DNA of 64,000 bases, from positions 57,937,560 through 58,001,559 of the forward strand of contig NC_134839.1 in the NCBI RefSeq assembly GCF_965363235.1. Reading direction: 5' to 3'. The notes under the pieces were generated by a model. That model saw nothing but the letters and a program-made list of their open reading frames with translations, made no database searches and was not told the origin of the DNA. This DNA comes from Mytilus galloprovincialis. Lineage: Eukaryota > Mollusca > Bivalvia > Mytilida > Mytilidae. Position 1 is the first letter of the stretch. Every line of letters starts with the position of its first letter. Below are positions 7,121-63,461 of the stretch, in pieces. Both the position numbers and the translations under genes were made by a program.

Positions 7121-7127
7121 TTGTAAA

Positions 7128-7485
7128 TTGATTTATCTTTACAATGGGGAATAACACGCCTACATTTGTTGTCGGAATCATTCGTAGCAATCCTACCCAA
7201 GTATGTCAATCGTAATAAGTTTGAAAACCGCTGAAAATTTGGAAATAAACGTCTCGCAGTATATTAAGATATATGGGACATTTTTTTTCTGAGATAAGTG
7301 CCTGACTAAATTGATTTATCTTTACAATGGTGTATAACACGCCTACATTTGTTGTCGGAATCATTCGTAGCAATCATACCCAAGTATGTCAATCGTAATA
7401 ATTATACCAACCGCTGAAAATTTGGAAAGAAACGTCTCGCAGTATAATAAGGTAAATAAGATTATTTTTTTCTGAGATAAGTGCC
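7128..7485 (+). repeat. Direct duplication of about 180 bp ahead of gene A
   Basis: Two adjacent copies (7,128-7,300 and 7,308-7,485) share TTGATTTATCTTTACAATGG, a TTGTTGTCGGAATCATTCG core, AACGTCTCGCAGTAT and a TTTCTGAGATAAGTGCCTG end. Copy 2 ends about 140 bp before the gene A start codon, so it lies in the promoter or 5' leader region. No core promoter motif stands out. Confidence 0.75.
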
Positions 7486-7622
7486 TGTGTTTGACAATTA
7501 TAAAAATATTAGGACATAAAAACTTGAGAATAATTGCTATCTTATCTATTTACTTACAGAACAAGGATTGTGAAAGAAGATACACGATCAATTTGTCTAC
7601 GTTTCGTGCAGGCTGTACAAAA

Positions 7623-10600
7623 ATGCACTTATTTATTTTGATTTTGCTAACTGCAGATTTAGTATATGTTAACAGGTCAGTACATGTATGTATGTAATAT
7701 ATATTCACTTTGACTAACCCCCCCCCCCCTAAAAAAACAGAATAAATTTGGTATGCACCAATAAGGAGGTAATAAAGTTATCATTGATATAATATTCATA
7801 AGGTTGCAGGAGCGGTTTTATGTTTCAATTTAAAACATTAAAATGCCTCAAAACAAAATCTGGCAATAAAACTAGCCTTTATACAAACAGGTATCTTGTA
7901 ATCGATCCATCTTGATAAAATTGGAAAAGATTAACTTTTCTCCGAAAGAAGGAATATCTGATCCATGGAAGAGACGCATTAAAAAAAGTCAATATGGAGG
8001 TTTGAACAATATTTTAGCGGTTTTCACGTATTCATGAATTGCCACGAAATTTGAAATCAGCATATGGAAAAGTTAATATTGTCTTAAGCAAAAGATAAAA
8101 ACGTGTCTTTTTAGTGTTCTTGGTGTCTCAGGTGGCTGAGGTTATATTTGATAGATTTGTTTTTTTTTTAAACCAGAATCAGGGATTATAGACTCCATGC
8201 TGAAGCATAATGTCGCCTGCCAAAAGTTGAAATGTTCGAAAATTAAGATGTATAGAAGATCTGTTGCTTAGAATTATCGCCAAACACAATTTTTATTTTA
8301 AAAAATACATTAATTTCAGTCAGGTATAAGAAGTACAATATTTAATTTTAGCCAAACTACACAAGGGTATAATTTGAAAGCTCTGAGCGTCAAGGAATTT
8401 TTACGGTTTGATGCCAACCATGATGGAACCATTACTTTAAGCGAATGGGAAACTGTTCTTCGAGGAGATGATGATGATGGTAAGTCCAATAAATGTTCAA
8501 TGAAAACAGCGATTTTGGAAGGTACGGTATGTGCTCAAAGGAACCGGCGATGTTGGAAGGCACGGTATGTGCTCAAAGGAACCGGCGATGTTGGAAGGTA
8601 CGTTATGTGCTCAAAGGAACCGGCGATGTTGGAAGGCACAGTATGTGCTTAAAGGAACCGGCGATGTTGGAAGGTATGGTATGTGCTGAAGGGAACCGGC
8701 GATGTTGGAAGGCACGGTGTGTGCTCAAAAGAAACGGTGATGATGGAAGGTACGTTATGTGCTCAAAGCAACCGGTGATGTTGGAAGGTACGTTATGTGC
8801 TCAAAGGAACCGGCGATGTTGGAAGGTACGGTATGTGCTAAAAGGAACCTACGATGTTGGAAGGCACGGTATGTGCTCAAAGGAATCGGCGATGTTGGAA
8901 GGTATGGTATGTGCTGAAGGGAACCGGCGATGTTGGAAGGCACGGTGTGTGCTCAAAAGAAACGGTGATGATGGAAGGTACGTTATGTGCTCAAAGCAAC
9001 CGGTGATGTTGGAAGGTACGTTATGTGCTCAAAGGAACCGGCGATGTTGGAAGGTACGGTATGTGCTAAAAGGAACCTACGATGTTGGAAGGCACGGTAT
9101 GTGCTCAAAGGAATCGGCGATGTTGGAAGGCATGGTATGTGCTCAAAGATACCGGTGATATTGGAAGGCACGAGATGTGCTCAAAGGAACCGGAGATATT
9201 AGAAGGCACGGGGTGTGCTCAAAGGAACCGACGATGTTGGAAGGCACAGGATGTGCTCAAAGGAGACGATGATGATGGTAGATACAATGTATGCCTAATG
9301 AAAACGACGATATCGGAAGGTACAAAAAATGCTCAGAGGAGACGACGAGGTCTGACGGTACAGTATGTACTCGGAGGAGACGACGATGTCTGAAGGTACA
9401 GTATGTACTCGGAGGAGACGACAAGGTCTGAAGGTACAGTATGTACTCAGAGGAGACGAGGTCTGAAGGTACAGTCTGTACTCGGAGGAGACGACGAGGT
9501 CTGAAGGTACAGTATGTACTCAGAGAAGACGAGGTCTGAAGGTTCAGTATGTACTCAGAGGAGACGAGGTCTGAAGGTACAGTATGTACTCAGAGGAGAC
9601 GACAAGGTCTGAAGGTACAGTATGTACTCAGAGAAGACGAGGTCTGAAGGTTCAGTATGTACTCAGAGGAGACGAGGTCTGAAGGTACAGTATGTACTCA
9701 GAGGAGACGACAAGGTCTGAAGGTACAGTATGTACTCGGAGGAGACGACGAGGTCTGAAGGTACCGTGAGTATGTACTCAGAGGAGACGAGGTCTGAAGG
9801 TACAGTATTTGCTCAGAGGAGATGATGATGACGGTAGGTACAGTATTTGCTCAGAGGAGACGATGATAACGGTAGGTACAGAGTTTGCTCAGTAAAGATG
9901 ATGACAATAGGTACGATGTACACATGTTAAGAGGAGACGACGAAATTTGACAATGTTGACGGTAGGTGCACATTTTGCTAAGTAACGTTGACGTTGACAG
10001 TAATAAGTAGGGACGATGAGAAGGTGAGATTGGCACGATTAGCGAAATATGATCTTTATAGCTCAAAAATATTGGATTACAAGAAAAAACATGTTCAATG
10101 TTTATGCCATTACCAATTTAATTTATCCATCTGCTAGTTGCAAGAATATATCTTTGTCACTGTCTGAGTGAGTTTTAATGTTTTTAGTTTTGATATTGAC
10201 GACTTAATTGCTGTGATAGGTTATATTTTTGATACACACTGTACATCATTTTATTAATTACTCATTAATTTTGTTATTTTAGAGAGATTAAATTTTAAAA
10301 ATATTCCCAAATAGTAAAATAATTTGAATATGTACTTATGTACTTGTCTATATTTCTTATTTTTTTTTGGTTTTGTAAAAAAAAATGCCCTGAAAGACAT
10401 CATTTTGGTAAGATGCTTGATTTTATTTTTACGCCAGAAAAATTGTATTTTTTTTCCAATAGGTGACGGAATCATAACTTGTGACGAGTATGTTCGTCAT
10501 TCGTCATCACCACATGACATTGCTTTAGGAGTACTGAACCAATTCAATGGCGGCGATTGTAAGTTAACGCACGATGAAGGACTGGTTCCATATCACCACA

Positions 10601-12166
10601 TGGACGGAAACGGTAAATGTTTACTTATATAATTTGTGTCAGCCAAGTAGTGAAATATAATAAAATTGAGAATGAAAATCAGTGGGGAATGTGCCAAAGA
10701 GACAACAACCCGACCATAGAGCAGACAACAGCAGAAGGTATTTATAAGTATTTATTTAAAACCTTTTTTCGTTAGAGTAAACTTACCTTTTATTTCAGTT
10801 CGTATAAAATTTACAAATGTATTATGAAAAAAGAAGAAAAGTGAGGATAATAAATGTAAAATAACTCTTAAGTACTTCTCTGCGCTCGAAGCGCTTTTAT
10901 TGGTTACCATTCATCAAGAACTCCCAGAGTAAAATATTTTGAAAGCCAAAGAAGTACAGAAACAAGAGATGAGTTGCATGGCCAAACATAATTCTAAGGT
11001 GACATCCAAATAACATAAGTTGAAGGAAAACACGCCATGGGGAAAACAGATATACGAAAATTCCACAAAATACCACATAGGATATACTATTACAAAATGT
11101 AGGCAACTCGAGTCCAACAAAATACCGGTGACAGATACTTGGCTGCTCCATAAGCTCCTGCTCTACTAATGACACTCATTGTGTTGTTCATGGCCGGTAA
11201 AAATACTATGATAAACTATCTTCTGTGATGTCGCAATCAATGAACAGCACAGAATAAATGCTACGCCAAATTGATAAAACATATGAAAAATGTGAAATTC
11301 ATTAAGTTTACCATCAACCAAGTCTAGTTACTAGTGTGTTGATGCAAAGACATTAAAAATTCATAATAGAATAATTAAAATCGTCTTTCTTGACTGAAAG
11401 TTATGTAAAGTCACTACCACAGCTGGGATTATCCGTCGATATAAAGTAAGAAAAAATATTTCTTTTTTTCATTGTTTTAATTGTTTAAATGAGCCTTTAA
11501 GAATAGATTTAATAACTGTTCGTTATTTATTTCAGGTGATGGAATTCTTCAAGAGATTGAGTTTATAAATTTCTACATTCAGGTAAATGTCCTTGGGAAC
11601 TTGCATGTTCATATTTTTATTGCACATACGGCATATGAATTAATGTGTTTCCATTTCATTCTTTTTATAAAATTTTAATGAATGTTTTGTTATTTATTAT
11701 TAACATCTTTTAAAAAAACATGGATCGTCGTGCAGGGAAGTTTCATAATGCAGTTTTGTTTGTTTTATAGGGTTCATCTCCATCTTTATATTGTTTGTTG
11801 GATACCAATTTTCGTAGATTACGTGGGTATACAGGTGAACCTCAGATTTGAATGTTCAACGAAGTACAAATTACCCATAGGCTTGTAGACAGACTTTGAC
11901 AAAACCTCGAAATCAAATACAAACTAAAGAATGACATTTTTTCCTCAAACCACGAAAGTTGGTTCCCATAAAAAAATAAATAAATTGAAAGTGAACACGT
12001 TGTGCATGTAGACATTTTTCTTTTGTTCAAATTGACCTCTTGTTACTTTGAATATTTGCGTCATTGGGTTACTTTTTCATTGGAGTAAATATTACATTTC
12101 TTTTTATTTCAGGTTTTGAAAAATCTTGGTCTTACTGATCATGGCCATACAACAAAGAGCACTTGA
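7623..12166 (+). CDS. Secreted four-EF-hand calcium-binding protein, gene A
   Basis: Five coding exons: 7623-7675, 8352-8479, 10463-10612, 11536-11582, 12113-12166, all GT-AG, phases 2, 1, 1, 0; 143 residues. Residues 1-17 (MHLFILILLTADLVYVN) form a signal peptide, so the product should be secreted. EF loops: 1 at 38-49 (DANHDGTITLSE), 2 at 58-69 (DDDGDGIITCDE), 3 at 89-99 (an 11-residue, Asp-poor loop, probably unable to bind Ca normally), 4 at 108-119 (DGNGDGILQEIE). Introns 2 and 4... that is, the exon 2/3 and exon 3/4 junctions, fall inside loops 2 and 4. Cys67 and Cys93 sit in loops 2 and 3 and are kept in all copies. The tail DHGHTTKST ends in a stop that overlaps a poly(A) signal. Intron 2 is filled by a 38-bp minisatellite. 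The start was chosen because its exon encodes a signal peptide and joins in phase. Ca binding is inferred from family knowledge; the physiological role is unknown. Confidence 0.85.
8462..10005 (+). repeat. 38-bp minisatellite seeded by the gene A exon 2 donor
   Basis: The first unit, 8462-8499, is exon 2's last 18 bases plus the first 20 of intron 2 (GAGGAGATGATGATGATG|GTAAGTCC...TTCA). About 40 units of exactly 38 bp follow, in three flavours: about 8,500-9,300 (AACCGGCGATGTTGGAAGG core), about 9,300-9,800 (GGAGACGA..AGGTCTGAAGG core) and about 9,800-9,930 (GAGGAGACGATGATGACGG core, closest to the founding unit). Many units keep a donor-like GGTA(A/G)GT or GGTACGG. Degenerate units fade out near 10,000. 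Confidence 0.9.
10680..11200 (+). repeat. Interspersed repeat fragments in gene A intron 3
   Basis: A short R-d-like piece (about 10,680-10,735, with GGAATGTGCCAAAGAGACAA) is followed by a repeat at about 10,860-11,200 with CTCCCAGAG, GCCAAACATAATTCTAAGG and GGCAACTCGAGTCCAAC motifs. The second repeat also lies in the same intron of gene D (about 57,740-58,060), so it predates the A/D duplication. The frames open across it show no domain. Confidence 0.65.
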
Positions 12167-23187: not shown

Positions 23188-24453
23188 GTCCAGGTTAAGA
23201 ATATGTTTAGGATACGTATAGCACGAATCATTGACAGGGTCAAAAAGATGTTTTTTGTATAAACAAAGGTTCCGTGCCATATATCGCTATTAATGTATGT
23301 ATGCCAATGATACAACTCTAATAGTAAAATGAAACAAGTTTGTTAACTTTATATTAAAGTCAATTATTGAACCAATGTATTCATATGTACTAAACGAAGT
23401 CTTCTATGCGCGCTTTATAATTACATTTATTACGAATCCATAAAGTATGTTCGACATAAATATTTCATTCAACGAATGATGATCGAAAACATTGGCTGCT
23501 AAGTAAATTTCTTGTTTTGCCAAAGTTCTAACGATGATTTTGATAATGTTTAGGATTTTAAGTTAAAAGTCAGTCCTTGTACGTGTATTTTATAGTTAAT
23601 AAAAATCCTGTCAAGTATCACACGGCTTCAAGTATAAACCAAAGACTAAATACTCTATAATGACAGTAGTATGATTCCTTTGGGACATGCTTTCAATATA
23701 GTCGGTCAGTCTCTAAATGTTTTCCCACCGAATGTATCCATCTTTCCGTTGAACGAAAAATAATTAACTGTTGACAATGACCTGTGATTGAACTGGTAAA
23801 CACAAAAATTCCCCATATGCACTGATCACTAATTTTCACTCACTTAAACGTGTATATGGTTTATACAAATTGAAAGCATTGATGATAATATAATAGAGAT
23901 TATTTGTATCAATTATAATTCCAGATAGATAAATAAGAATATCATTTAAAGAATATTTGTGATGCATAGAAAATAATTGTGTTGTAAAATTAGTGTTCTG
24001 TCCAATTGTCTGTCCGCAGTCTGACTGGACTCCTGTTCGAATTTCGCATTATGCTATTTTGCCTTTGCTAGTTGTGTTCTTCAAAAGCAGTTATGATGAT
24101 TTCTGGTTGATAAACGCACTGTTAGCTTCTGAAAATATAACTATTAGATAATTAACAATTGTTATAACGGTTGATATTTTCGTATTATTGGTATGGATTC
24201 TCTTTAATCTCCCATTTGATTGACCATTAAAAAGATAATGCATGCAATTTTACGTGTAATTGTTTTTCGTTCCAGCAACCAAGATTAATATGGTGAGACA
24301 AAACATATTACAACACAAATAGCATCAACGCTATCATGACTTGAAATAATGAGGACTATTTCTAACTATGGAAAGAGTAACTAAGGTCAGCCAAACTAAG
24401 GAAAACGTGATCTGTCATAACGTCAGTGAAAGATAAAGGACTAATGACTTAGC

Positions 24454-24507
24454 TTTAAATACCAGTCTAGTCTATCTAGTCTTTGTAAGTCGTCTCTTTG
24501 GATCAAG
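24454..24507 (+). promoter_or_regulatory. Putative promoter and 5' non-coding exon of gene B
   Basis: A TATA-like TTTAAATA (24,454-24,461) precedes a short putative leader exon ending at 24,507 in GGATCAAG with a GTGAGT donor. The next exon starts at 25,471 (acceptor TTTTAG) with ATCACC just before the ATG. The arrangement is repeated upstream of gene E (62,470-62,519). The exact transcription start is not visible. Confidence 0.55.
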
Positions 24508-25079
24508 GTGAGTTCTATATTTATATCGTTCTAGATACCTTCAAATTTATAGTAAAACTTACACTGCCATATATGTGTATTCAAATTTTGTACTTCAAAT
24601 TTTGCTGTTTCTTTGAGATATTAATGTAATCAAATTTTTAAATTTTATGATTTTTTAGGTGTTTTTCTTTCTTTCTACAAAACGTAGAAAGTTACTAAAG
24701 AATGCTTCTGAATGGGGTCCAACTTAGTTCAGTCTAAATTTAGATATTTGTAAATCAATTTTCCTTTCTGGAAGAGAAAAATAAGTGAATAAAATTAAAA
24801 TTAAAAAAATATAGTAAAAGACGACGGTAATAAGTTTATATATGTATTCCCTGACCCAAGGATAAAAAAAGATTACAAATTCTCTCAATAATTCCTGAAA
24901 TGCACGAACACATGTGCAATCAACAACTGGAACATGAGCACACTAGTTCAATATGCATACGAACTATTTGTTCATTTGTAATAGGCATAAAGACAACATC
25001 GACTTGGAAATAATTGAAGTACAGAGAATGTCCATTTATTTTTTGAATACACCCTTTAAGACAAAGAAATACGTCATTG

Positions 25080-25310
25080 TAGTCTCATAAATAAATTCAT
25101 GTAGACTTAGAAAGAAGTATATTCCAACTTAGAAATAACAGTTCCTGTAGACTTGGAAATACGACGTTCATGTCGACTTAGAAATACGTTCATGTAGACG
25201 TAGATATACGTTCATGTACTTATAAATACTTCCATGTAGACTAAGGACATACCCACAAAAATATGGACTACGTCTATGTAGACTTGAACATACGTCCACA
25301 TAAACTTGAG
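25080..25310 (+). repeat. Tandem repeat in the gene B 5' leader intron
   Basis: Roughly 22-bp imperfect units based on ATACGTTCATGTAGACTTAG fill the end of the leader intron. The same array lies ahead of gene E (63,030-63,290), so it is part of the segmental duplication. Confidence 0.75.
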
Positions 25311-25476
25311 AACACACTCAACAATCAAAACAAATATTGACCCTTTGGTGGCCTTTGGCTGTTTTCTGCTATCTGTTCGGGTTGTTGTCTCTGGAACATA
25401 TTCCCCGTCTCAATTTAATGTTGTCAGAAAAACATTCAAGCACTAAAGATTTATTTGAAATTTGTTTTAGATCACC

Positions 25477-28400
25477 ATGCAGTTGCTCGTTGTATTATCC
25501 TTACTTTTTGGATATGCTTATTGGTAAGTCATAATTGTATTTTTTTATACTGTCATCAAATTCTCGAAAAACAAAAACTCGTTATACATTCTGCAGTGTG
25601 TAATCTCCCTAATTTTATCTACTTAAATGATTATAAATTTGACAATGAATTATTCATTATTTACTAAGTAGTTGTTTAGGTATATATACAAAATGAATTT
25701 TCTATCTTATGTCTCGTGAAAATGTATAATATTAAGATCATATATAATGAAATACCTTATAAAGTTGGTTTTTTTTTTTAAATTTGTTGATTTCAAATTA
25801 GTTATCTGATGTTCGGGGTCCGTTGTTTTCCTCTTATAGTAGATGTGTTTTCTTCGGTTATAATTTGTGACCCGGATTTTTTTTTGCTTGATCGATTCAT
25901 AACTATTGAACAGTGGTATACAACTGTTGCCTTTATTGAAATCAGAGAAACTAACCCATGAAAAAAACCCATGTTCTTGCAAATGCATTGCGTTTTTTTA
26001 CAGTCAGATTCATGTCCATGGACATGAATTGAATGTATTGGTAGCTAAAGGGTTTGCTCGTCTTGACACGAATAAAGACGGAATCTTGGAAACCAACGAA
26101 TACGAGGCTGTTTTAAAGGTTGACGACACTGATGGTTTGTAATAATATATAATACATACTTCAATAGGACTCCCAAATCGATGGCCGATTTTATGGCCCT
26201 CTAATCAAAGTTTTTTTTTCAAATCACAAATTGACGTCCAAATCTTTGACTCACGACCTTAAAAATAAAATGTGAAACAAACAGGATAGAATGTTAAGCC
26301 CCAGTCCCACTAGACTACGATCGCACCACGCTCACCGCGATCTAAAATAAATTCAGATCGTGGTGAGGTCGCGGCATGAAAATGAAAATTTCCGTTGCTT
26401 TCACGATGCTACTACGTCATCAATACGCTTCTACAACGATCCCGCTGCGATTATACCACGTTCTCACCGCGCTTATTCTGCGACCTCACTACGCTTATTA
26501 AAATCGTTCTACGCTCATCATGTTCTCACAACGACCATACCACGAGTTATCCGATTGCAACACGATCTTACCACGCTTCTACTGCGATTATAGCACGTTC
26601 TTACCACGATTATACTACGCTCATACCGCGATCTTACTACGTTCTCAGCAATAACGTCAACGTCGTGTTCTATATCAATACAGTTCCATTCCTTCTATTT
26701 CTGATTAATACGTAAATTTCGCGAAAACAATACAGTCATGCCACCAAAATCTACTAGAACACGTGGGCGTGGTGGTAGGGGTTGATGAAGAGGCAGAGGG
26801 AGATCAGATAGTAATGAAGCCGACCAATCCAACCTAAATTACAACCTTTTGTTGGTCCATAAAGCTCAAATGACGATATTTCAGTGAACGATAGCAGAGA
26901 TGACACAGATGTGTCAATAGATATAGGAATATGTGGTATGAGTGCTAATGAGACAACCCTCCATCCAAGTAACAACTTATAAAAGTAAACCATTATAAGC
27001 CAAGGTACGGCCTTCAACACGGAGCATTGTTTCACACCGAACAGCAAGCTATAAAGGGCCCCAAAAATATTAGTGTAATACCATTGAAACGGGAAAATCA
27101 ACGGTCTTATCTATATATTTAAACGAGAGGCATGGTTGAGCCGTTAGAGAAAATAGACAAGAAGTCATAATAACATTCAGACAAACAAAACCTGGAGAGA
27201 TTTAATATATCTTATGTGAAAACGACAATGAGAATGATGGTCGTAGTATAAACGTAGTCAGGTCGTAAGAAGAGCGTGATGAGGACGACAAGGGCGTGCT
27301 AGAATCGTACTATGGTCTTGAACAGCGTGGTGTAAACGTGGTATAGTCGTAGTGGAAGCGTAGTTGGGTCGCGGGGAGAACGTGGTGGTCGTAGTAAGAT
27401 CGTAATAACGTCGCTGTGAGATCGTAGCGCAGTCTCTTCGAATAGAATCCCGCTTTCGCTACGCTCTCTCTACGATGGTACAGCGACCTTTGCGATCTTA
27501 CTACGACCTTAGTGCGCTCTCACTACGCTTTTTCTACGACCTGATTTCACCACGACCGCACCACGATTGTTTTGAACATGTTCAAAGTTGGCCACGCTCA
27601 TCACGATCTTGAAGACCTCACCACGACCGTGATACGACCGTGATACGACCGTGATACGATCTACACGATCGTACTACGATCATCAAAATTTGCATATTTT
27701 TCACAGATCGTAGTGCGATCGTGGCCTAGTGGGACTGTGGTATTATTTAATGCGGGGTTCACACATTGCCGATTATTGCTCCCGTTTGAGATCAGACAGC
27801 GATACGACGCGAAAAGTGAAAAAGTCGGATTACTATCCTCAATTATCTGGAATGTCCTATCATTGTCTGAAAGCAGTCATTTAAGTTCGTAATAGATTCC
27901 TACGGGTCGGGAAGGGTCCGAATAGTTCGCCGAAGTACCCCGACAGTTATGTGCGTCCCGTAACATTCGGGGAAACTCAGCCGATTTTGTCTAGTCGGAT
28001 TACAATCGTGCCTATGTCGTGACAGATTCTGCTGTATCGGATCAAAATCCTAACAATGTTCTGTGTATTCTGGACGGTGTCCTGTGGAACGGGAATGATC
28101 TGGAGAAAATTTTCATTGCTGTTTTTCTACCGATTGAATCCAGATTGAATCCAAATCTTGTCGATTGCGTACCGTTTTTGCCGAAACCGTTCCGGAACAG
28201 TCCCGTTATTAATACGAAATTCGTCAATGATACCCACGTCAGATTCCCGACAATTAAAGAATACAATACGACTAAGACCAGACAAAGCCGTTTGCAATGC
28301 GATAGAGCGGACCGTGATAAGATTACATTACGACAGTACCTGATCCTCCCGAGTATGCAGACAGTTTTCGAACGGATAACTTCCGTCAGCGTCGGTTCAC

Positions 28401-31400
28401 TGTCTTGTCACAGTATGATCTCTGTCGGATTACATTCGGTAAAATCGGGACGCAGTCATGACAGACTCGGTCGAATTTTACCAGGCGAAAGATACAACTT
28501 GGATTAGAAGCGGATTATCGGGATAAATTCGCTTGGAAACGGTTGAATATCGACGCTTCCTGAACAATATCTGATTGTTGTCGTGATTAAATTATTTGTT
28601 TTACATATTTTAATTAAAGTTTGAACTACCATCCACGATTCACAGGATCTTGATCCGACTTTTGACAAATTTTAATCGGGAATGGTCCTGTCAAGGACGG
28701 CAGTAAAATCGTATATGTGTGACCCCAGCTTAATCAAATTAATTGTATGTTGTCATTGATTGTCTTGTTGTCGTTTACAGAACCCACGTTTGTTCTTTTA
28801 TCTTGTTTAAAGAAGTTCGCTTGTCATATTTTGGAATTTTTGTCATATTTTCGAAATCCTCTGGTTTTATCTATTCAAATGCCTTAAAACAATTTGTCCA
28901 TTGACCTCCATATTTCTTTTTATAAATCTTTTACATGTAAAGTCTTATAAGCCATCTGTAAAAAATCTTATAACATTTTTGATATTTTTAATAGTTTTTG
29001 AGAACTTAAACTTGTCAATGATAAAGCTATGAAAAATCAAGAGAGAACATTTTCCCACAAAAATTTCAATGGCTAATATCTCGAAAACAAGCACATTAAC
29101 CTATATTTTATTTTCGCTCTTTCGATTTCTTTATTAATCCACTATCAATATATACTGGTACTGTGAAAAGCTTGTTATTTTGAAATTGAGTAGCGAACTT
29201 CCTTAAGGTGACTCTTTGGGACGGGAATCTGTTCTGTGTTGTTAATTTTCATAAGTCAACTACGTCAGTATGATTTGTATATATATGCCTCTTTCGGCGA
29301 TACAACTGCAAAACCAAAACAATGAATACATGGAATACAGAAGAAATAAGTAAAGTCTAAACTGGGAATAAAACGAATCATTATACCATATATTATTCGT
29401 CGATTAGAGGAGAGAACCCATTCTAACATGACGTCCTTCAAACGCTTTGAGTACACACCCGTGGTAAAATATGAATATATTGGTTGGGCTGTTCTGATTG
29501 TACTCTCACGTCATATGATTGTTTATGGATGGAGTACACGACGTCATAGAATGATAACGTAATAGTTTAAGCATTTTTCGGGAAAATACAGGCTTCTGAT
29601 ACCGAAAATCATCACCAGAATGAAACGTAAACAAACAATACTAAAATGTGGTATAAGCCCTTTTTTATATACATAGAAGATATATAAGTAAATTATCATT
29701 AAAATTCATCCAAATCTATCTAAATATATTATTGTAAATAGTTTGAGCATGTCACTAAATCTGTTTGCTCCGTTCTTTACCGCCAATCTTAAAGTGGGTT
29801 AATTTATGGGAACGGCAAATATTTGCCTCCATCTAGTGCGCTTTGAACCAAAACAATTGCTATATTTGTCTTATCAGAATCGAAATAATTCATGGTGGCT
29901 TGAATATATCTAAATTTTACCACGGGTTGTCCCTTTATGCCGATATTTTACCCCTCGCTATCGCTCAGGGTAAAATATTTGTCATAAAGGGCCAACCCGT
30001 GGTAAAATAACGATATATTCAAGCCCCCATGAATTATTTCTTAAATAGTCTATAACAGATCGGACATCTTTTTGTAATTGTAATACATGACGTCATAGTT
30101 GATTTTGATTAGAAGATGAACAATATTTATTGCCATTGATTTACAATTGTACGTATATTTTGAGACCGGTTGTCGATCTGAGTTTAAGATATATATTCCA
30201 TATACCATACCAATCTCCCAAGAGAGAGAAAGGACCGATAACTTTGCATGGGAGATTGATACCATACGTCTGTTTTCTAGGTGGTCAAAACGTTTTTTAA
30301 ATACAACATATTATTTTAAGACATCGTTACATTCTATTTGTACTGTTATAATGTTTCTATGATTAAAGGTGACGGAACGATTACCTGTGATGAATACGTA
30401 GCTCACTCGTCTGCGCCAAAGGCACTTGCTTTACAAATATTTACCGCAGTTGACCCTGATCATGACTGTTCTCTTACTCATGCAGAAGCTTTGAGCTTAC
30501 TGACAAAAATGGACCAAACAGGTATTTTTTTTTTACTTACAAATCATAGAAAAATCGAATACAAGTGTCGAAGGCCGTACCTTAACCTTTTATGGTTTAC
30601 TTTTATAAATTGTTACTTAGATGGAAATTGTCTCATTGGCACTCATATCACATCTTCCTATATCTATTGAATAATCTGGGAGATGCATACTATGACCTTT
30701 TTTGTCATATACTTCATGTATGTCTCACATCTAACGGTTCGAAATGTTGTTTATTTGTACTCTTTAGTTTGAGAAATGAATATCAAAGATGTCCACATAC
30801 ATTTCGATAAATGAACAGCAGAAGCACAACTGAAATCATAAAAAGAAACGTTATTTATCTCACGCTTTTGGAAGTTCAATGATTTTTTTATTCCAGACAA
30901 AAGTTACACGAATTAAAGCAACATATTTATAATGAATTTTATACAGAAAAGAAATATATAGTAGATGAAACAAAAGACCAAACAAAGGCAAAACTGACAC
31001 CTACATTACATAGGGACCAGTTATCAACGCCATCACTGATCAGGGGGTTTCTATACCTAATATGTTTAAGAAAATAACTATGGTAACCGAATGTGCTTGT
31101 TGATTTGCTGTATTTATTTTCATGTATACATTTCATTTTTACAGGAGATGGACAGGTCAGCGAACATGAGTTTGAACATTATTACGTTCAGGTAAGACTA
31201 TAATGGCAACTTCCAGTGCTCAAGATACTGGCCATGTATGCATTTTTTTTTAATTGAAAAAATTCCCAAAAGCAACAGATTGATTCGATTATGTATCTCA
31301 TTAATAACAAGAATGTGTCCCAAGTACACGGATACCCCATCCGCATTATCATTTTCTATGTTCCGTGGACCTTGAAAATGGGGTAAAAACTCTAATTTGG

Positions 31401-33608
31401 CATTAAAATTAGAAAGATCATATTATAGGGAACAGGTGTCAAGTTGATTGGACTTCAAATTCATCAAAAACTACATCGACCAAAAACTTTAAACTGAAGC
31501 GGGACAGACGGACGAACAGACGGACGCACAGACCAGAAAACATAATGCCCATAAATGGAACATAAACATTGAATATCTCTTTTAAATACGTCTGTAAATT
31601 GCTTTTTGATACCTCTATAAATTGCTTTTTATGGTTGCTTTTGTATGAGACTATATACCTTGCCTACTACAAAGTGGTGTTGTCCTCTTGACATCGATCT
31701 GTGTGGTTATCTTTGTCATGGGGTGGCTTACTCATTGACGTTGAACCCAAAATATACTGTTATGTACAGTTGTATTTGTTTATGTCTGTCATATGTTAAC
31801 AGTCATATGTTAACAGTGTAACATATGACAGACATAAACAAATACAACTGTACATAACAGTTTATTTTGGGTACAACGTCAATGAACTAGCCGCCTAATG
31901 ACAAAGATAACAAACAGATGTTAATTTGATAGATGCTTTTGTGATTTTTGTAAAATTGTTTGTTTTAAGATTTTAACACAGTGATGACTGCCGTACCCAT
32001 ATTTTGACTATTTTTTTTATTATGTCCGTTTTGCTCACGCATCGTTGTAAATATAACGGAATTTGATGAAACTGTCGTACAAGTGAAAGGTTTAGCTCTA
32101 TAAAACCAGGTTCAATCCACCATTTTCTACATTTGAAAATGCCTGTACCAAGTCAGGAATATGACAGTTGTTGTCCATTTGTTTGAGGTGTTTTGTCATT
32201 TGATTTTGCCATGTGATTAGGGACCTTTCGATTGAATTTCCCTCGGAGTTCAGTATTTTTGTGATTTTACTTTTTTGTGTGGCAGAGACATCAGCATTAA
32301 TCTTTAAAATAACTAATTTATACAAATAAAACAGATTTGACGACAATAGACTTCTCCCAATGTTTGAGTATTTTTAATCATGCTTATACGTAAAACAGGA
32401 CAGGAGTTTTGAGTAATGAAAAAAATCAGGACAGGAGTTTTGAGTAAAAAAAAAAAGGCAAAAGGAGCAACTTTGCCAAAAAACGGCAGGATGACAATTT
32501 ATGTAAAAAGTCAGAATGAATATAGGCGGGACCGACTAGAGCAACACATATAAAGGCAGGACAGAAATTACAATTTAAAAAAGACAGGGCAGAAATTTTC
32601 ATCCTAGACCACCCCCTCCCTCTCACAAAAAATCAAAAAAATGAAATTGTAGCTCCCTTATGAAAATATCATTTTTTAGTACAATAATGTCATGACTTTT
32701 GTTTGTTATTGGAAATGTTTTGTTTGTCATCGGCCATCTATAACAGTGATTTTACGCTCATTCAGTGTGTCAGAAGCCTTCAAATAGTGATTAAAATAGA
32801 ATAAAAGAGTAAAGTACATGCAGGTGCACGAGAAAAAAAAATGAAAGTTTAAGGATGCAACATTTAAATCAACACACAAGGTTTAGTCCTTTGCACGTTA
32901 TTCGTATTATTTGATTTAGGCGTTTGGAACCTTTAGCAACCCCACAGTTTAAATGTCTGTAACACGTTCGATATGACAAGTGGGGGTTACAGACGAATGT
33001 TCACCCAATCTGACCCAGTCAATTGATAACCGGAGCGCGCCAAAAAAAAATTCTTGTCCACGTAATTATGAAAATGATTCTGTTTACATATGGCCTGACG
33101 AAGGCTATTTGTTCAGCTAAATTATTTGTCAACACGATTTTATAACATTATCTTCATATATTATCATTTATATGAATACTGTTGCGCAAATCTTCAAACT
33201 TTGTAACATTTTCCTTATTTGCGCAGCATCGTCCTGTACATATTAAATTTGCTGGTCGGTTATTTTCTATAGACCTAGATGTTTCATCTCAAATTTAACA
33301 AAACATTGTAAGATCACTTAATTTGTGTTAGGAAAGTTTTGTTTTTCCCTCAGCGGGGTTCGAACATTTCCGTCTGTGGCATCGTTGCAACTTCGCCTGG
33401 ACCGTGATCAACGCCCTACACCACTGGACCACTTTGGCTACAAAAAAAGATAGCTTTCGGGGGTAGATTTAAATGTAATGACTTTGTTCGTTGATTTAAT
33501 CTAGGGTTGTATATATTTGTCCAAGATCGAAACAAAATTATATTATATTTTTTTCAGATCTTGAAACACCTCGGTCACGTGGACCATGGTCACCAAGTAG
33601 TGGGTTGA
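25477..33608 (+). CDS. Secreted four-EF-hand calcium-binding protein, gene B
   Basis: Coding exons: 25477-25523, 26004-26134, 30369-30521, 31145-31191, 33558-33608; GT-AG introns, phases 2, 1, 1, 0; 142 residues. Residues 1-15 are a signal peptide (MQLLVVLSLLFGYAY), then a His-rich start to the mature chain (QIHVHGHEL). EF loops: 37-48 (DTNKDGILETNE), 57-68 (DTDGDGTITCDE), 88-99 (DPDHDCSLTHAE), 108-119 (DQTGDGQVSEHE). Loops 1, 2 and 4 look canonical; loop 3 has Cys instead of Gly at position 6. Cys66 and Cys93 match those of gene A and could pair in the secreted protein. The C-terminus is His-rich (GHVDHGHQVVG). A leader exon lies upstream at about 24,480-24,507, and a 3' UTR intron (donor after 33,611) joins a last exon at 34,912. 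Introns 2 and 4 carry several transposons. Function beyond Ca binding is not known. Confidence 0.88.
25800..25935 (-). repeat. R-b repeat copy
   Basis: Reverse-complement copy of the family recognised by GGCAACAGTAGTATACCGC, ending at TGCCTTTATTG. Located in gene B intron 1. Other copies: 38,246-38,435, 49,270-49,420, 54,352-54,505, 60,915-61,090. Confidence 0.75.
26301..27740. mobile_element. Inverted-repeat element packed with CACGAT/ACGATC motifs
   Basis: The left end CCAGTCCCACTAGACTACGA and right end CCTAGTGGGACTGTGG are inverted copies, and the outer ~350 bp on each side are built from short words such as TACTACGATC and CCACGCT in opposite orientations. An R-d copy (26,925-27,115) is nested in the middle. 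No transposase, hence non-autonomous. It lies in gene B intron 2. A TTAA sits just outside the left end (26,294-26,297), but a matching right-hand target repeat is not exact. Confidence 0.7.
26925..27115 (+). repeat. R-d repeat copy, nested
   Basis: Starts ATATAGGAATATGTGGTATG and contains GCTAATGAGACAACC and GGTACGGCCTTCAACACGG. It sits inside the 26,301-27,740 element and is therefore younger. Confidence 0.8.
27747..28733. mobile_element. Non-autonomous element with TTAA target duplication
   Basis: TTAA at 27,747-27,750 and 28,730-28,733 encloses inverted ends GCGGGGTTCACACAT and ATGTGTGACCCCAGC. TTAA duplications are the mark of piggyBac- and Kolobok-type transposases. The interior is rich in CGGATTAC/CGACAG-type words and has a 162-codon frame (28,019-28,507) with no recognisable domain, which I take as fortuitous. 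It abuts the previous element in gene B intron 2. Confidence 0.7.
28806..29207. mobile_element. MITE-like element with AAGTTCGCT inverted ends
   Basis: Left end TTTAAAGAAGTTCGCT, right end AGCGAACTTCCTTAAGG; interior AT-rich and non-coding. Length about 400 bp. Located in gene B intron 2. Confidence 0.6.
29882..30040. repeat. Long palindrome in gene B intron 2
   Basis: Two arms of about 72 bp (29,882-29,952 and 29,968-30,040) are inverted copies around a 15-bp centre. Arm words include GAAATAATTCATGG / CCATGAATTATTTC and TTTTACCACGGGTTG / CAACCCGTGGTAAAA. It could form a hairpin in the pre-mRNA or a cruciform in DNA. Probably a foldback element. Confidence 0.8.
30565..30672 (-). repeat. R-d repeat copy
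   Basis: Reverse-complement copy in gene B intron 3, with GGCCGTACCTTAACC, TTGTCTCATTGGCACTCAT and ATCTTCCTATATCTAT. It begins about 45 bp downstream of the exon 3 donor. Confidence 0.8.
31313..31560 (-). repeat. R-e repeat copy
   Basis: Inverted relative to 17,230-17,590: ends in GACGGACGAACAGACGGACG-type words and contains GTTGATTGGACTTCAAATTC. Located in gene B intron 4. Confidence 0.75.
31696..31920. repeat. Foldback element with ~100-bp inverted arms
   Basis: Arms at about 31,696-31,800 and 31,817-31,920 are inverted copies with only a few differences; the inner 45 bp (for example TACAGTTGTATTTGTTTATG and its complement) appear identical. The spacer is about 16 bp. Located in gene B intron 4. 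The transcribed intron would fold into a strong hairpin. Confidence 0.85.
32093..32290 (-). repeat. R-c repeat copy
   Basis: Reverse-complement copy of a common mussel repeat: AAAACCAGGTTCAATCCACC, GTACCAAGTCAGGAATATGA and GTATTTTTGTGATTTTAC. Other copies: 35,600-35,930 (+), 41,140-41,440 (+), 51,028-51,215 (+), 51,520-51,710 (-), 53,905-53,985 (-) and 61,095-61,205 (+). Confidence 0.8.
33340..33440 (-). repeat. tRNA-derived SINE head
   Basis: On the minus strand, TGGTCCAGTGGTGTAGGG (33,431-33,414) fits an RNA polymerase III A box region, and about 50 nt downstream ATGTTCGAACCCC fits the B box (GTTCGAANC type). The rest does not fold into a full cloverleaf that I can support, so I call it a SINE head rather than a tRNA gene. 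Located in gene B intron 4, about 120 bp before the last coding exon. Confidence 0.6.
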
Positions 33609-36315: not shown

Positions 36316-36510
36316 AAAAGAGGGACGAAAGATACCAGAGGAAGAATCAAACTCATAGATAGAAAATAAACTGACAATGTCATGACTAAAATTAAAAAGA
36401 CTAACAGACAAATAATAGTACAGAAGACACAACATACAAAACTGAAGACTAAGCAACACGAACCACACCAAAAACTTGGGGTGATCTCAGGTGCTCCGGA
36501 AGGATAAACA
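36316..36510 (+). repeat. R-a repeat copy
   Basis: AAGAGGGACGAAAGATACCA to CAGGTGCTCCGGAAGG. The short reverse-strand frames here are fortuitous. Confidence 0.8.
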
Positions 36511-38830: not shown

Positions 38831-38849
38831 TATTCTTTAACTTTTAATT

Positions 38850-39180
38850 ACATTTGCCTTGGTGGCTTTAAGACCTTGGTGGTCATTTATATATGCCTTG
38901 GTGGCAAAAGACCTAGGTGGTCATTTATATATGCCTTGGTGGCAATAGACCTAGGTGGTCATTTATATATGCCTTGGTGGCAATAGACCTAGGTGGTCAT
39001 TTTTATAATTTTTTACATTTGCCTTGATGGCAATATTACATTAAAAATACTAGCCTTTGGGGCGTCAAGACCTTGGTGGTCATTTATATTTGCCTTGGCG
39101 GCTTTTTGATAGAACTAGATAGTAATGTTTGACCTTGGTGGCAAAATGTTTTGGGATTTGGACCTTGGCCGGTAGTTATT
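38850..39180 (+). repeat. 38-bp minisatellite, GCCTTGGTGGC type
   Basis: Nearly perfect 38-bp units (GCCTTGGTGGC, AGACCTAGGTGGTC, ATTTATATAT) at about 38,900-39,000, flanked by degenerate units to 39,180. Sequence-unrelated to the gene A array in spite of the equal period. Confidence 0.85.
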
Positions 39181-50364: not shown

Positions 50365-53300
50365 ATGAAACTGATACTTGCTTTGTCTCTGTTCCTTGGA
50401 TATGTCACTTGGTATGTATGATGACAAAATTATACATTATAAATTGTATACGTCCAAAGTACTTTTTGAGACTAACCTTAACCAAGAACGCTCAAACCAG
50501 AACATTTGAAAGTCAATTATGTATAAAGGCAGAGACATATTGGAAGCTTAAAACATATAGGACATTAAAAGAAGAGTGCTAAATTCATTTACTTTGTTTA
50601 TGGACGACTGAATCTTAGATTCTCAGTTATTTCTTAATTTTTTAACGGAGCATTGTAGGGATTATGTGTTATAAATCGTGTCCGTACCCAGGCACTGACT
50701 ACTGTGCTTGTTATAAATTCAGAGATTAACAGATCAAGTATTAGTAAATGGAAGTCACAAATAAAAGGCATACATTTATATTATTTTTGCTAAATTCTGC
50801 TATTGTATCTAGATAACATATTAAATGCATGTAAAATATGTCAAGTTGTTACAATTGATTTCAACAAAGAAGCACAGAAGAATTGATTACGATGCATGTA
50901 TAATTGTCGAGAGCCTCGATATATTTTATAATCGTAATGTGTCCAAATTACATTTAACTATATTACTACTGTTAATTTAAAACTATTGCAAGGTTTATAT
51001 TAATCCGAATAATGCGACTGGGTAAAAAGTAAAATCACAACAAATCTCCATGCAAATGACAAAATCAAACGCTCAAACACACCAAACGAATGGATAACAA
51101 CTGTCATATTTCTGTCTGGATACAGGCATATTCTTAGGTAGAAAATGGTAAACTTAGCCAGATTTCATAGGTAGCTAAACCTCTTACTTGTATGATTGTC
51201 GCATACTTGTAAATATTAAAATAATACGAATTCGCATTTTGATATCTGATACTTAGAACTGTAAATAGATTTTTCTTAAATCACAATCAGTTATCTCGCA
51301 TTTTTACTCATTTTTTTATATCGCAATAGCACACAATAAGTTTGAAATCTAAAGTTAATGAAGGACTTAATGTGGGTTTTTTTTTCTCTGCGTTTTATTA
51401 GTAGTTTAACTAAGTCTAATCCTTTTAGTCCAAGCCTGGCAGTTTGTTAAATTATGTTTTTCCGAATTTGTTTCAAAGGATTTACAATAAATTCGTACAA
51501 GTCAAGGAAGATATTTAGCGCTATAAAACCAGGTTCAATCCACCATTTTCTACATTTGAAAATGCTTGTACCAAGTCAGGAATATGACAGTTGTTGTCCG
51601 TTCGTTAGATATGTGTTATCATTTATTTTGCCATTTGATTAGGGACTTTCCGTTTCGAATTTTCCGTGGAGTTTAGTATTTTTGTGATTTTACTTCTTCT
51701 TTTTTTTTTGTATTGCAGTCAGCATATCCATGGTCATGAACTGAAAGTATTGGCCCAGAATGAGTTCAATGGCTATGATCACAATCATAATGGTGTTCTA
51801 GAGATGGCCGAATTTGAAGCTTCTGTTCAAGGCACTGACACCAATGGTTTGTATCCTTGTATCATTTATGGAATATTGTCTCTTGAATTTTGAAATGAGA
51901 AGATACTATAGGTTCGTAAAAAAAAAGAACACTTGAAATGTTGACATGACATTGGTCATTGATCTACATGTATGGTCATATAAATTGGTACTATTCATGC
52001 TCTTTTCAATGAAAATCGTGACGTCCCAATGCATTCATAAAAGCACGACAATCTATGAGACGAGGAGGATAATTCTTAACAATCGTGGGCCGCACATTTT
52101 CTCAAAGTAAGACTTTAAAACTTCAAACTTCTTATATTAGAGGATATCGAGCTTTAAAAATTTCAGGAAATAATCGACTACCGCTTATCATCAAAAAGTA
52201 CACGTAAAAGGAAAATATAAATTCATCATAGATACCAGGATTATATGTTTGTACAAAAAAAAACGAACACAAAATATGAACAAGAAAAAATACGAAATTT
52301 AAATACCATTGACAATACTAATGTTTATCATATTCGTACTTTATTTGGTCTTTTTAACTTTATTTTATTCGCGCGACACCGATGAGTCTTTTGTAGCCAA
52401 AACACGGGTCTGGCATGGATACAAAGTTTAAGTCTTGTTATCAATGATAAGTTTATTTTCATGAATGTGTTGCAAAATAATACTACATATGAATGTTTTG
52501 ATTTATCAGAAACATAATCAATGTAAGCACTTACAAACAATTTAAACTGAAATATCTTGATATTGTGTTGAATCGGTATCCATTAAGAACAAGTTTAATG
52601 AAAGAATATGACCTTTCAGTCCTAATATGCCTAGTATCACTGTATTCCTATATCTTTAAATTTGCATCGTTTTGAAAGGTTTGAAGACTTTTTTTCAGTT
52701 TTAATTGTCTAAAGACGAACCTTTTACATAATGCGATTAACCTAGATTTTGCTATTCTCGTTGATACCTATTGTATCTCCTTCATATTTTTTGGGAATCT
52801 GAACATCGTTTAAGAACAACTCATGCTTTTTAAGCTTATATTTTTTTTTGAAGTACCTTGAATTATGATGATAATTGCACATCAAACTCAAATTAAATCT
52901 AAAATTAATTCACAGGTGATGGACACGTTACTTGCGCTGAATATGCCGCTGCAAGTTCACAGCCACATGCTCTAGCACTTGAGATATTCCACCATTATGA
53001 TCAAGATGTAGATTGTATCATGAGTCATGCAGATGCAGTGGCTACATTTCATCAAATCGACTCAAACGGTATGTAGGAATCTGATGTTCAGTGGTTGTCG
53101 TCTGTTTATGTGGATGATACGTGATTCTCGTTTCTTTTTTTTTTTTATAGATTAGACCGCTGGCTTTTTCCGATTGTATGGTTTTACACTAGTAATGTTT
53201 GGAGCCCTTTATAGCTTCCTGTTCGGTGTAAGCCTAGGCTCCGTGTTGAAGACCTTGACCTATTATGGTTTACTTTTATAAATTGTGACTTGGGTATAAA

Positions 53301-54108
53301 GTTGTCTCATTGGCACTCATACCACATCTTCCTATATCTATATATATTTGAAATTAGTTTAAGTAAACCGCTATTCTCAATCGTCTTGGTTTTTTTAAAT
53401 TGATTAGTTATCATTATATATTTGATATTTATCCTCACGCATAGAGAACACGGATACATATTTATGTAGTTATAACCGTTACATATGCGTTGCGTTAAAG
53501 TTTTGGACTAAATGTGGTATAGACACAAGAAAAGGTAACCAAAATGTATTTGCCGATAAGCCATCTATGCTCGGTAACAAATTATTTCTTTAATTGCAAG
53601 ATTGGAACGAAGAAACAAATATATGTACAGATGACCAAACTGCAAACAAATACTTCAACAAATAAAACTAAAAGAAAATCTTTTTTTAAACAGGTGGTGG
53701 AACTGTGAATGAACACGAGTTTGAACATTATTACACACAGGTAAAGTATAAATAATTTACATGGTGCAACACACATTGTTCAATACTAAATTTATTTCTA
53801 TTAATTGCACATTTATCTAACTTTGAATTTCAGTGAATTAAAACATTTGGAATTAAATTTGAGAACTTTTATTTTTTAAAGTAAAAGATGTGTTTAATCA
53901 ATTGATTTTGCCATTTGATTAGGGACTTTCCGTTTTGATTTTTTCTCGGAGTTTAGTATTTTTGTGATTTTACTTTACTAAATGGTATTGATGTGACTTT
54001 TTATTAGCTTGATACATCTACCGGTATGTGTTTTACTTATCTATTTCTCGTTATCTGTAGATAATGAAGCATCTTGGACACATTCCACACGGCCACAATG
54101 GAAGATAA
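50365..54108 (+). CDS. Secreted four-EF-hand calcium-binding protein, gene C
   Basis: Coding exons: 50365-50411, 51719-51846, 52916-53068, 53694-53740, 54061-54108; phases 2, 1, 1, 0; 140 residues. Signal peptide 1-15 (MKLILALSLFLGYVT), then His-rich QHIHGHEL like gene B. EF loops: 36-47 (DHNHNGVLEMAE), 56-67 (DTNGDGHVTCAE), 87-98 (DQDVDCIMSHAD, with Asp at position 12), 107-118 (DSNGGGTVNEHE, with Gly at position 5). Loops 3 and 4 depart from consensus, so two strong sites are likely. Cys65 and Cys92 match the conserved pair. The tail is HIPHGHNGR. The acceptor at 50,358 just before ATCAGAATG implies an upstream leader exon, not located. The final coding exon ends one base after the stop (54,109) at a donor and splices to 54,796. 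Closest to B in its N-terminus and signal peptide, but clearly older than the A/D and B/E pairs. Confidence 0.88.
51028..51215 (+). repeat. R-c repeat copy in gene C intron 1
   Basis: GTAAAATCACAACAAATCTC, AATGGATAACAACTGTCATA and TAGCTAAACCTCTTACTTG. It faces the inverted copy at 51,520-51,710 in the same intron, so the two could pair in the transcript. Confidence 0.8.
51520..51710 (-). repeat. R-c copy abutting the gene C exon 2 acceptor
   Basis: Reverse-complement copy from AAAACCAGGTTCAATCCACC to GTATTTTTGTGATTTTACTT. Its T-rich end runs directly into the TTCTTCTTTTT tract and the TTGCAG acceptor at 51,718. Confidence 0.8.
52330..52460 (+). repeat. Hammerhead-family copy with damaged core
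   Basis: CACCGATGAGTCTTTTGTAG and GGTCTGGCATGG align to the 42.6-kb ribozyme. CTGATGA has become CCGATGA and the GAAA box is altered, so activity is not expected. Located in gene C intron 2. Confidence 0.65.
53190..53348 (-). repeat. R-d repeat copy
   Basis: Long copy in gene C intron 3: GCCCTTTATAGCTTCCTG, CTCCGTGTTGAAGACC, TTGTCTCATTGGCACTCAT and CATCTTCCTATATCTA. Confidence 0.8.
53905..53985 (-). repeat. R-c fragment in gene C intron 4
   Basis: TTTGCCATTTGATTAGGGAC to GTATTTTTGTGATTTTAC, the same 3' piece as at 51,640-51,710. Confidence 0.75.
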
Positions 54109-56227: not shown

Positions 56228-56279
56228 GTTTCAAAAGAGGGACGAAAGATACCAGAGGAACAGTCAAACTCATAGATAG
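56228..56279 (+). repeat. R-a fragment at the left edge of the D array
   Basis: AAAGAGGGACGAAAGATACC through CAAACTCATAGATAGA, then an abrupt switch to minisatellite sequence at about 56,280. Only the first ~50 bp of the family are present, so the breakpoint lies here. Confidence 0.8.
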
Positions 56280-56283
56280 ACTG

Positions 56284-56985
56284 AGAGGTACAGTATTTGT
56301 TCAGCGGAGACGGTGATGACGGTAGGTACAGTATTTGCTCAGAGGAAACGATGATGACGGTAGGTACAGTATTTGTTCAGCGGAGACGGTGATGACGGTA
56401 GGTACAGAATTTGTTCAGAGGAGACGATGATGACGGTGATACAGTATTTGTTCAGAGGAGACGGTAATGACGGTAGGTATAGTATTTGTTCAGAGGAGAC
56501 GGTGATGACGGTAGGTACAGTATTTGTTAAGTTAAGACGGTGATGACGGTAGGTACAGTATTGGTTCAGAGGAGACGGTGATGACGGTAGGTACAGAATT
56601 TGCTCAGAGGAGACGATGATGACGGTAGGTACAGAATTTGCTCAGAGGAGACGATGATGACGGTAGGTACAGACTTTGCTCAGAGGAGACGATGATGACG
56701 GTAGCTACAGTATTTGTTCAGAGGAGACGATGATGACGGTAGGTACATCATTTGTTCAGAGGAGACGATGATGACGGTAGGTACAGAATTTGTTTAGAGG
56801 AGACGGTGATGACGGTAGGTACAGAATTTGTTCAGAGGAGACGGTGATGACGGTAGGTACAGTTTTTGGTCAGAGGAGACGGTGATGACGGTAAGTACAG
56901 TATTTGTTCAGAGGAGACGGTGATGACGGTAGGTACAGTATTTGTTCAGAGGAGACGGTGATGACGGTAGGTACAGAATTTGCTA
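56284..56985 (+). repeat. 38-bp minisatellite upstream of gene D exon 3
   Basis: About 18 units of the GAGGAGACG(A/G)TGATGACGG type with GTAGGTACAGTATTTG, the third flavour of the gene A array. The array lies at the place of gene A's intron 2 end, and the sequence after it (about 57,000-57,427) matches gene A's intron up to exon 3. The founding exon is missing. Confidence 0.9.
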
Positions 56986-62469: not shown

Positions 62470-62519
62470 TTTGAATACCAGTCTAGTCTAGTCTTTGTAA
62501 GTCTTCTCTTTGGATCAAG
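62470..62519 (+). promoter_or_regulatory. Putative promoter and 5' non-coding exon of gene E
   Basis: TTTGAATA at 62,470-62,477 replaces gene B's TTTAAATA. The leader CTTTGTAAGTCTTCTC...GGATCAAG ends at 62,519 with a GTGAGT donor. The next exon starts at 63,456 after TTTTAG. Confidence 0.55.
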
Positions 62520-63029
62520 GTGAGTCCTAAATTTATATCGTTTTAGATATCTTTTTAAACTTACACTGCCAGATGTGTTATTTCTACTTCAAATTTTACT
62601 GTTTCTTTGAGATATTAATTTCATCAAATTTTAAATTGCTATATGATATGATTCTTTTAGGGTTTTTTGGGGTTTTTTTTTCAAAATATCAGAAAATTAT
62701 TAAAGAATTTGGTTTAGTCTGATATTTGTAAATAAACATTCATTTCTGGAACAGTTAAAAAAAGTAAATTAAATTAAATTTCTTAATATAATAAAAGACG
62801 ACGGTAATGAATATATACATTGTGCAATCAACAAATGGAGCATGAGGACAACTAGTGCAATAGGAATACTAACTGCCTGATCACTTGAAATATATAGTTA
62901 TAAAGACTTAGAAAAACGCCCATATAGCCTTACTATTGAGTCCATTTATACTTCGGACTGAGACGACATCGACTTGGAAATACGTAAAATTTGTTTAAGT
63001 ACATAACATGCCCATTTATTCTTAAGATA

Positions 63030-63290
63030 CACATGTAGACGAAGGAATATGTCATTGCAGACTTAGAAATAAGTTCATGTAGACTTAGAAAGACTTATAT
63101 TTCAACTGAGATATACGTTCATGTAGACTTGGAAATACGACGTTCATGTTGACTTAGAAATACGTTAATGTAGACGTAGATATACGTTCATGTACTTAGA
63201 AGTACTTCCATATAAACTTAGGCTATACCAATATAGAACATGGAATACGTCCGTGTGGACTTGGAAACACGTCCAAATAAACTTATGAAC
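63030..63290 (+). repeat. Tandem repeat in the gene E 5' leader intron
   Basis: Imperfect ~22-bp units around ATACGTTCATGTAGACTTGG, the counterpart of 25,080-25,310. Confidence 0.75.
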
Positions 63291-63461
63291 ACACTCAATA
63301 ATCAAAACAAATATTGACCCATTGGTGACCTTCAGCTATTTTCTGCTCTTTGGTCGAATAGTTATCTCTTTAACACATTACCCGTTTCCATTCTCAATCT
63401 TTTGTTGTCAGAAAAACATTCAAGCACTAAATATTTGTTTGTCATTCTGTTTTAGATCACC

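Follow-up and report, generated by a model that had tools for sequence, protein, structure and literature searches.

What does a tandem repeat that opens directly behind an exon, in register with that exon's end, owe to the exon, and what does it do to splicing at the donor it adjoins? This question is raised by an EF-hand gene, gene A, in a window of 64,000 nucleotides of Mytilus galloprovincialis DNA (contig NC_134839.1, positions 57,937,560 to 58,001,559 of the forward strand; all coordinates below count from the first letter of this stretch). Our answer, to which we assign a probability of about 0.82, is that the array arose by tandem duplication of the exon 2 junction and mostly leaves splicing at the original donor. 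The product of gene A matches M. galloprovincialis LOC143062319 isoform X3 with 100% identity ("uncharacterized protein"; P0003, 183 aa), and the 40 further N-terminal residues of this isoform map to 7144-7200 and about 7557-7622. EF-hands are recognized in the protein by Pfam, so that it is predicted to bind calcium, and the hydrophobic N-terminus encoded by the bases that follow 7622 is a putative signal peptide. Intron 2 splits EF-hand loop 2 in phase 1 (...LRGDDDD/GDGIITCDE, the slash marking the splice site here and below). Gene A also carries a second boundary-spanning duplication, a two-copy tandem repeat of 183 bp (90%) at 7124-7487, which covers the exon that extends isoform X3 at the 5' end (7144-7200) along with its donor; the two donor copies lie at 7201 and 7384, and the duplication is possibly the source of isoforms X1/X2.

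The initial annotation reported a 38-bp minisatellite at the start of intron 2. It is real and comprises ~1.5 kb, with 39 units from 8480 on. TRF returned period-38 rows at 8509-9264, 8518-9881 and 9798-9914, and wrap-around alignment to a 38-base consensus starting at the donor GT placed array A between 8462, inside exon 2, and 9943, followed by a degenerate stretch with one further GGTAGGT that extends to about 10005. The end of exon 2 at 8479 and the start of the donor at 8480 are in register with the units, which measure 38 bp, in some cases 35 bp, a size in the minisatellite range. Within the first block, six units are duplicated exactly (8670-8897 and 8898-9125, identical at 228 of 228 positions), and this duplication together with the 133-base exact run in the second block points to recent expansion of array A. 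Exact repeats of 228 and 133 bp combined with a diverged edge unit (22/38) would fit homogenisation of this array, while the edge units of the second array described below are not diverged (33/36 and 17/18 to consensus). Judging from the exact internal duplication of 228 bp in the single assembly, differences in array length between individual mussels are plausible. When the two-unit pair between the first two blocks was compared with the 56-base junction region, it agreed at 42 positions, the best result among 55 units; the next best, a unit of array B, reached 40 and the median was 34. Since this lead is narrow (42 versus 40 of 56), the pair is kept as a possible second junction copy inside the intron.

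Table 1 Features of the 38-bp arrays and their host genes in the window.
Feature	Coordinates	Strand	Remarks
Gene A, five-exon model	7623-7675, 8352-8479, 10463-10612, 11536-11582, 12113-12166	+	encodes 143 residues, all matching P0003
Gene A exon 2	8352-8479	+	100% match to P0003 isoform X3; last residues in EF-hand loop 2
Junction copy of the 38-bp unit	8458-8495	+	22 terminal bases of exon 2 joined to the opening 16 of intron 2; alignment core from 8462; 29/38 to consensus
Canonical exon 2 donor ATG/GTAAGT	8480-8485	+	used by RefSeq isoform X3; outscores all other GT sites in 8480-10010 on the matrix
First intronic unit	8480-8517	+	22/38 to consensus, the lowest count among 38-base units
Decoy donor AAG/GTACGG	8522-8527	+	sole decoy of 24 that preserves the normal C-terminus; in-frame gain of 14 aa within EF loop 2
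Block A1	8518-9239	+	19 units, type GAAGG(T/C)ACGGTATGTGCTCAAAGGAACCGGCGATGTTG; contains exact 228-bp duplication
Two-unit pair	9240-9315	+	resembles exon end plus first intronic unit; donor changed to GTAGAT
Block A2	9316-9795	+	38/35-bp units, type GAAGGTACAGTATGTACTCAGAGGAGACGACGAGGTCT; identical to itself over 133 bp when shifted by 108
Block A3	9796-10005	+	array-B-like units; GTAGGT at 9834, 9872, 9962; degenerate tail after
Gene A exon 3	10463-10612	+	completes EF loop 2
Dispersed repeat fragment adjoining array B	56233-56280	+	95.8% to 36316-36363; A:B homology begins here
Array B	56286-56984	+	17 full units plus partial ends; in-register GT 17/17, GTA(A/G)GT 15/17
Paralogue B exon 3	57428-57577	+	followed by exon 4 (58497-58543) and exon 5 (59070-59123); exon 2 not found

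The proposal that the array originated in the splice donor of exon 2 is supported by homology in register between junction and unit. The junction 38-mer agrees with the unit at 29 of 38 positions, as compared with a maximum of 22 at 61,542 plus-strand positions outside the arrays, and the best ungapped match outside both arrays for any rotation of the unit on either strand of the 64-kb window was 23/38. For the 22 exon bases of the junction alone, agreement was 18/22 (maximum outside the arrays 14, at 61,558 positions), and the unit ending at 9833 agrees with this exon tail at 19 of 22. The paralogous genes C and D encode the same EF loop at the end of exon 2, yet agreement with the unit is 12 and 8 of the 22 positions there, so the likeness is not explained by shared function or by an Asp-rich exon end. 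The founding unit had been given as the last 18 bases of the exon and the first 20 of the intron; that it spans the junction is borne out, while the exon share may have been 18 or 22 bases, as a tandem array can be cut into units at more than one point.

All four mismatches between exon tail and consensus are synonymous (CTT/CTC, CGA/AGA and, twice, GAT/GAC), for which P is about 0.001-0.003 if four changes fall at random. This is as expected if the exon was kept under selection after its end had been copied. Note that the consensus was our choice and is weighted to array A, and that bases common to the exon and the B-like units of array A were taken as ancestral, so that the argument from synonymy is partly circular. 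Two columns of the exon part have another prevailing base in array B than in the consensus (T instead of C in 13/18 units, G instead of A in 11/18), and both differences are of the replacement type. The majority base per column of array B accordingly encodes FRGDGDD and agrees with the exon tail at 16/22, and three of the 18 array B units encode LRGDDDDG exactly.

Array B, which the initial annotation did not contain, is a second array of the 38-bp unit; its host is paralogue B, where it resides in the intron that corresponds to intron 2 of gene A. The units of both arrays align to one common consensus. Homology between A and B starts at the array and continues through exons 3-5 and beyond. 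In exons 3-5, 244 of 251 positions are identical, and the seven changes comprise five synonymous and two replacement changes (dN 0.010, dS 0.10); in the introns between these exons and in intron 2 beyond the array, identity is 0.46-0.89 in 50-column windows. No exon resembling exon 1 or 2 of gene A was found upstream of array B, in a search that an unrelated first exon would escape. Paralogue B was consequently rejected as an intact gene despite the 244/251 identity in exons 3-5; it may be a gene with other 5' exons, a converted pseudogene or a read-through from gene D. The presence of the unit in the matching introns of both paralogues indicates that it is probably older than the A/B split, and array B has likely outlived its founding exon.

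The neighbourhood holds further relatives and repeats. In the paralogous EF-hand genes C (26038-33593) and D (51744-54096), exon 2 is followed by an intron whose place and phase agree with those in gene A; their exon 2 donors are the weak GTTTGT, and no 38-bp array is present there. Intron 2 of gene C contains 11/22-bp minisatellites at 26426-26645 and 27484-27659, starting about 290 bp past exon 2. The region upstream of gene C (23195-25544) is duplicated downstream of B (60765-63529), each copy with a 22-bp minisatellite, which suggests block duplication of A plus C. An apparently unrelated array with a period of 38 bp is found at 38848-39007 (TTATATATGCCTTGGTGGCAAAAGACCTAGGTGGTCAT).

What do the copies mean for splicing? 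The statement that many copies retain GGTA(A/G)GT does not hold for array A, where the motif is in register in only two of the 38 aligned intronic copies (9834, 9872), with one more at 9962 past the aligned part. Most array A copies carry GGAAGGT in place of GGTAGGT. Besides the canonical donor, an in-register GT is present in 3/38 intronic units of array A, compared with every full unit of array B, and for GTA(A/G)GT in register the figures are 2/38 and 15/17. Array B contains 16 GGTA(A/G)GT and 14 TTTG(C/T)TCAG motifs, array A three of the latter, and only in array B are both motifs common.

The loss of donors in A and their retention in B is the pattern expected from selection, because only A has an exon in front of its array. 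One can thus envisage that selection against mis-splicing purged the donors behind the live exon 2 of gene A, whereas in B the exon was lost, the donors were kept and the array outlived the exon. Taken as a whole, we consider this scenario unlikely. Donor purging was discarded as a main claim and is unproven, as nearly all losses in array A share a single change, GGTAGGT to GGAAGGT, which may have arisen once and then been passed from copy to copy by homogenisation. After this change an overlapping site is present, AAG/GTACGT, which the matrix scores higher than the old site (5.35 versus 3.72); U1 pairing ranks the two in the opposite order (-6.4 versus -10.4 for the old site). The A/B contrast, with donors mostly lost in one array and kept in the other, whose founding exon is gone, is a fresh and as yet unproven point. 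With one paralogous array still following its founding exon and the other orphaned, the pair could be used to test whether the harm done by decoy donors is large enough for selection to remove them.

The idea that intron 2 is lined with decoy donors proved correct in one respect. Donors were scored with a metazoan matrix that was not trained on mussel. The threshold was the weakest of the four scored gene A donors, that of exon 3 with 2.48, in a set without the donor at 7201. On this scale, 24 GT sites pass; none of the 145 GT sites in 8482-10010 exceeds the canonical donor, however (best site 5.35, canonical 6.29). The three GTAGGT sites at 9834, 9872 and 9962 do surpass it in U1 pairing, with -10.4, -10.4 and -10.1 as compared with -9.1. 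It is conceivable that the array is a working splicing regulator, in which decoys and purine-rich exon copies would tune the amount of full-length EF-hand protein according to array length, on the model of TERT VNTR6-1 or ABCA7. In addition to the 24 sites in 8482-10010 that are at least as strong as the weakest scored gene A donor, this would be in line with the in-frame insert of 14 amino acids provided by the decoy at 8522, and with the human ABCA7 array, which also begins at an exon donor, is reported to leak a unit into mRNA and affects exon 19 skipping through its length (PMC5954066). It would also fit the outcome of 200 shuffles per array at a lower threshold, the lowest score of a predicted donor (exon 2 of C and D), where donor-like sites numbered 56 in A against a shuffle mean of 35 and 30 in B against 14, counts that 0/200 shuffles reached in either case. 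At scores of at least 5, by contrast, the sites are not clearly enriched (A, 5 versus 1.96, reached by 12/200 shuffles; B, 1 versus 0.74, reached by 105/200). Moreover, 23 of the 24 decoys would, if used, destroy the normal C-terminus, isoform X3, the one read of the three that its name implies (X1 to X3), uses the canonical junction of exons 2 and 3, and regular splicing was reported in amphioxus (PMC3087553). Weighing these points, we regard a regulatory role as distinctly unlikely.

The intronic copies had also been read as possible 17-nt micro-exons encoding acidic stretches. For the few intact copies the length is correct, and our data speak neither for nor against the use of such exons; inclusion of one of them would shift the reading frame. 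The array acceptors TTTG(C/T)TCAG have 8-10 pyrimidines among 17 bases, those of the four real acceptors of gene A amounting to 9-14. Such counts are compatible with micro-exons, because the acceptors predicted for exon 3 in C and D have 10 and 8 of 17. An array-encoded peptide was not present among the matches listed (the best 1 of 1005, which is P0003, 2 of 4 and 3 of 29), P0003 standing there for the nine cluster members behind it.

The exact register of the array with exon 2 also speaks against a further explanation, in which the array reached intron 2 as the tandem core of a mobile element, its likeness to the exon being accidental or produced by overwriting of the exon end. In its favour, tandem cores occur in mobile elements of bivalves, and array B is adjoined by a dispersed repeat fragment (56233-56280), but this fragment has no match longer than 9 bases at array A. 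The absence of any unit copy outside both arrays in the window (best ungapped match, as stated above, 23/38) and the fact that C and D have the exon end for the same EF loop and the same intron phase likewise argue against such an insertion, which we deem highly improbable. An exact-match scan of prokaryotic genomes gave 0 hits and is uninformative on mussel elements. That the array built the intron in the first place, by intron gain through tandem duplication, can be practically dismissed even though a CAG and a GT signal are both found in units of the ancestral type, because C and D have the intron at the same position and in the same phase without a 38-bp array, so that the intron is older than the array and this model is ruled out provided that C and D are genuine paralogues.

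According to the reading that we prefer, origin of the array in the exon 2 junction, the end of exon 2 and the start of intron 2 of an EF-hand gene would have been duplicated in tandem, creating a "mirage" minisatellite, and this founding duplication would have preceded the separation of A and B. Unequal exchange or slippage would subsequently have enlarged and homogenised the array. The canonical donor would stay dominant, because it has the best matrix score and is the only donor beside a defined exon, and occasional use of an array donor would mostly yield messages without the normal C-terminus.

How does this array compare with known systems? In the model of Rogers (1989) and Hellsten (2011), both cited in PMC4974935, an intron is gained when an exon segment that contains AGGT is duplicated in tandem. 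The mussel array resembles this model in that tandem duplication copies splice signals and differs from it in that the intron predates the array. Among molluscs, a 27-bp minisatellite in intron 3 of an abalone TSSK1-like gene differs in repeat number among individuals (PMC6905558); it is a mollusc intron minisatellite like that of the mussel but is not described there as spanning a boundary. A limited search of open-licence literature found no boundary-spanning minisatellite in molluscs, from which we do not claim absence. VNTR6-1 in intron 6 of human TERT also has a 38-bp unit, is situated more than 1 kb from exon-intron junctions and acts through RNA:RNA pairing (PMC11830802, PMC3948165). 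Unit length and intronic place are thus shared with the mussel array, and we take the common length of 38 bp as coincidence.

Closer parallels come from human exon-intron boundaries. Internal tandem repeats at such boundaries in human segmental duplications have a mean unit of 30 bp (Genome Biol 2009, R137; PMC2812944), and 27 intron modifications were kept there after inspection. As in the mussel, these are minisatellites at exon-intron boundaries of recently duplicated paralogues; they were mostly called through exon-retained repeats and RNAs (PMC2812944), whereas the mussel array is intronic and was read from DNA. In ABCA7, an intron 18 VNTR has a 25-bp unit whose first GT is the exon donor, leaks one repeat unit into mRNA and ranges in measured length from 298 to 10,678 bp; the length affects exon 19 skipping and not unit retention (PMC5954066). 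The register of the mussel array likewise begins at the exon's own donor GT (8480). Unlike the mussel unit, that of ABCA7 is described as starting at GT, with no exon-derived coding bases (PMC5954066), and splicing and length have been measured for ABCA7, whereas the mussel array is known from the sequence of one assembly. ABCA7 is a close human counterpart in which the array changes splicing and Alzheimer's disease risk.

The mirage minisatellites of amphioxus, reported for Adh3, the globins BflGb6/BflGb9, troponin C and PGBD5, consist of tandem units that straddle the boundary of an exon and an intron, and some of the units contain splice signals; the cluster is homogenised with the exclusion of edge units (PMC3087553, PMC3902484). 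Unit sizes are 10-72 bp for Adh3 and 10-160 bp over the reported cases (PMC3087553, PMC3902484), and regular splicing is described as undisturbed (PMC3087553). The mussel units, too, span the boundary, some copies carry splice signals, and 38 bp falls within the Adh3 range. The gene for troponin C (TnC) is also an EF-hand gene. The diverged edge unit and recent expansion of array A resemble the amphioxus clusters, whereas the edges of array B do not. Further differences are the mollusc host, the size of ~40 units, the occurrence in a pair of paralogues, in one of which no founding exon is detectable, and the loss of the original donor from most array A copies. Lancelets gave the named mirages and human duplicated genes the boundary repeats (PMC2812944), so the kind is already known. 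By boundary span, unit size and splice signals in part of the copies (in-register GT in 17/17 units of array B, a weaker 3/38 in array A), the mussel array is structurally a mirage minisatellite, and the two mussel arrays offer a case in which to ask how the true site is recognized in splicing when dozens of similar copies lie close by.
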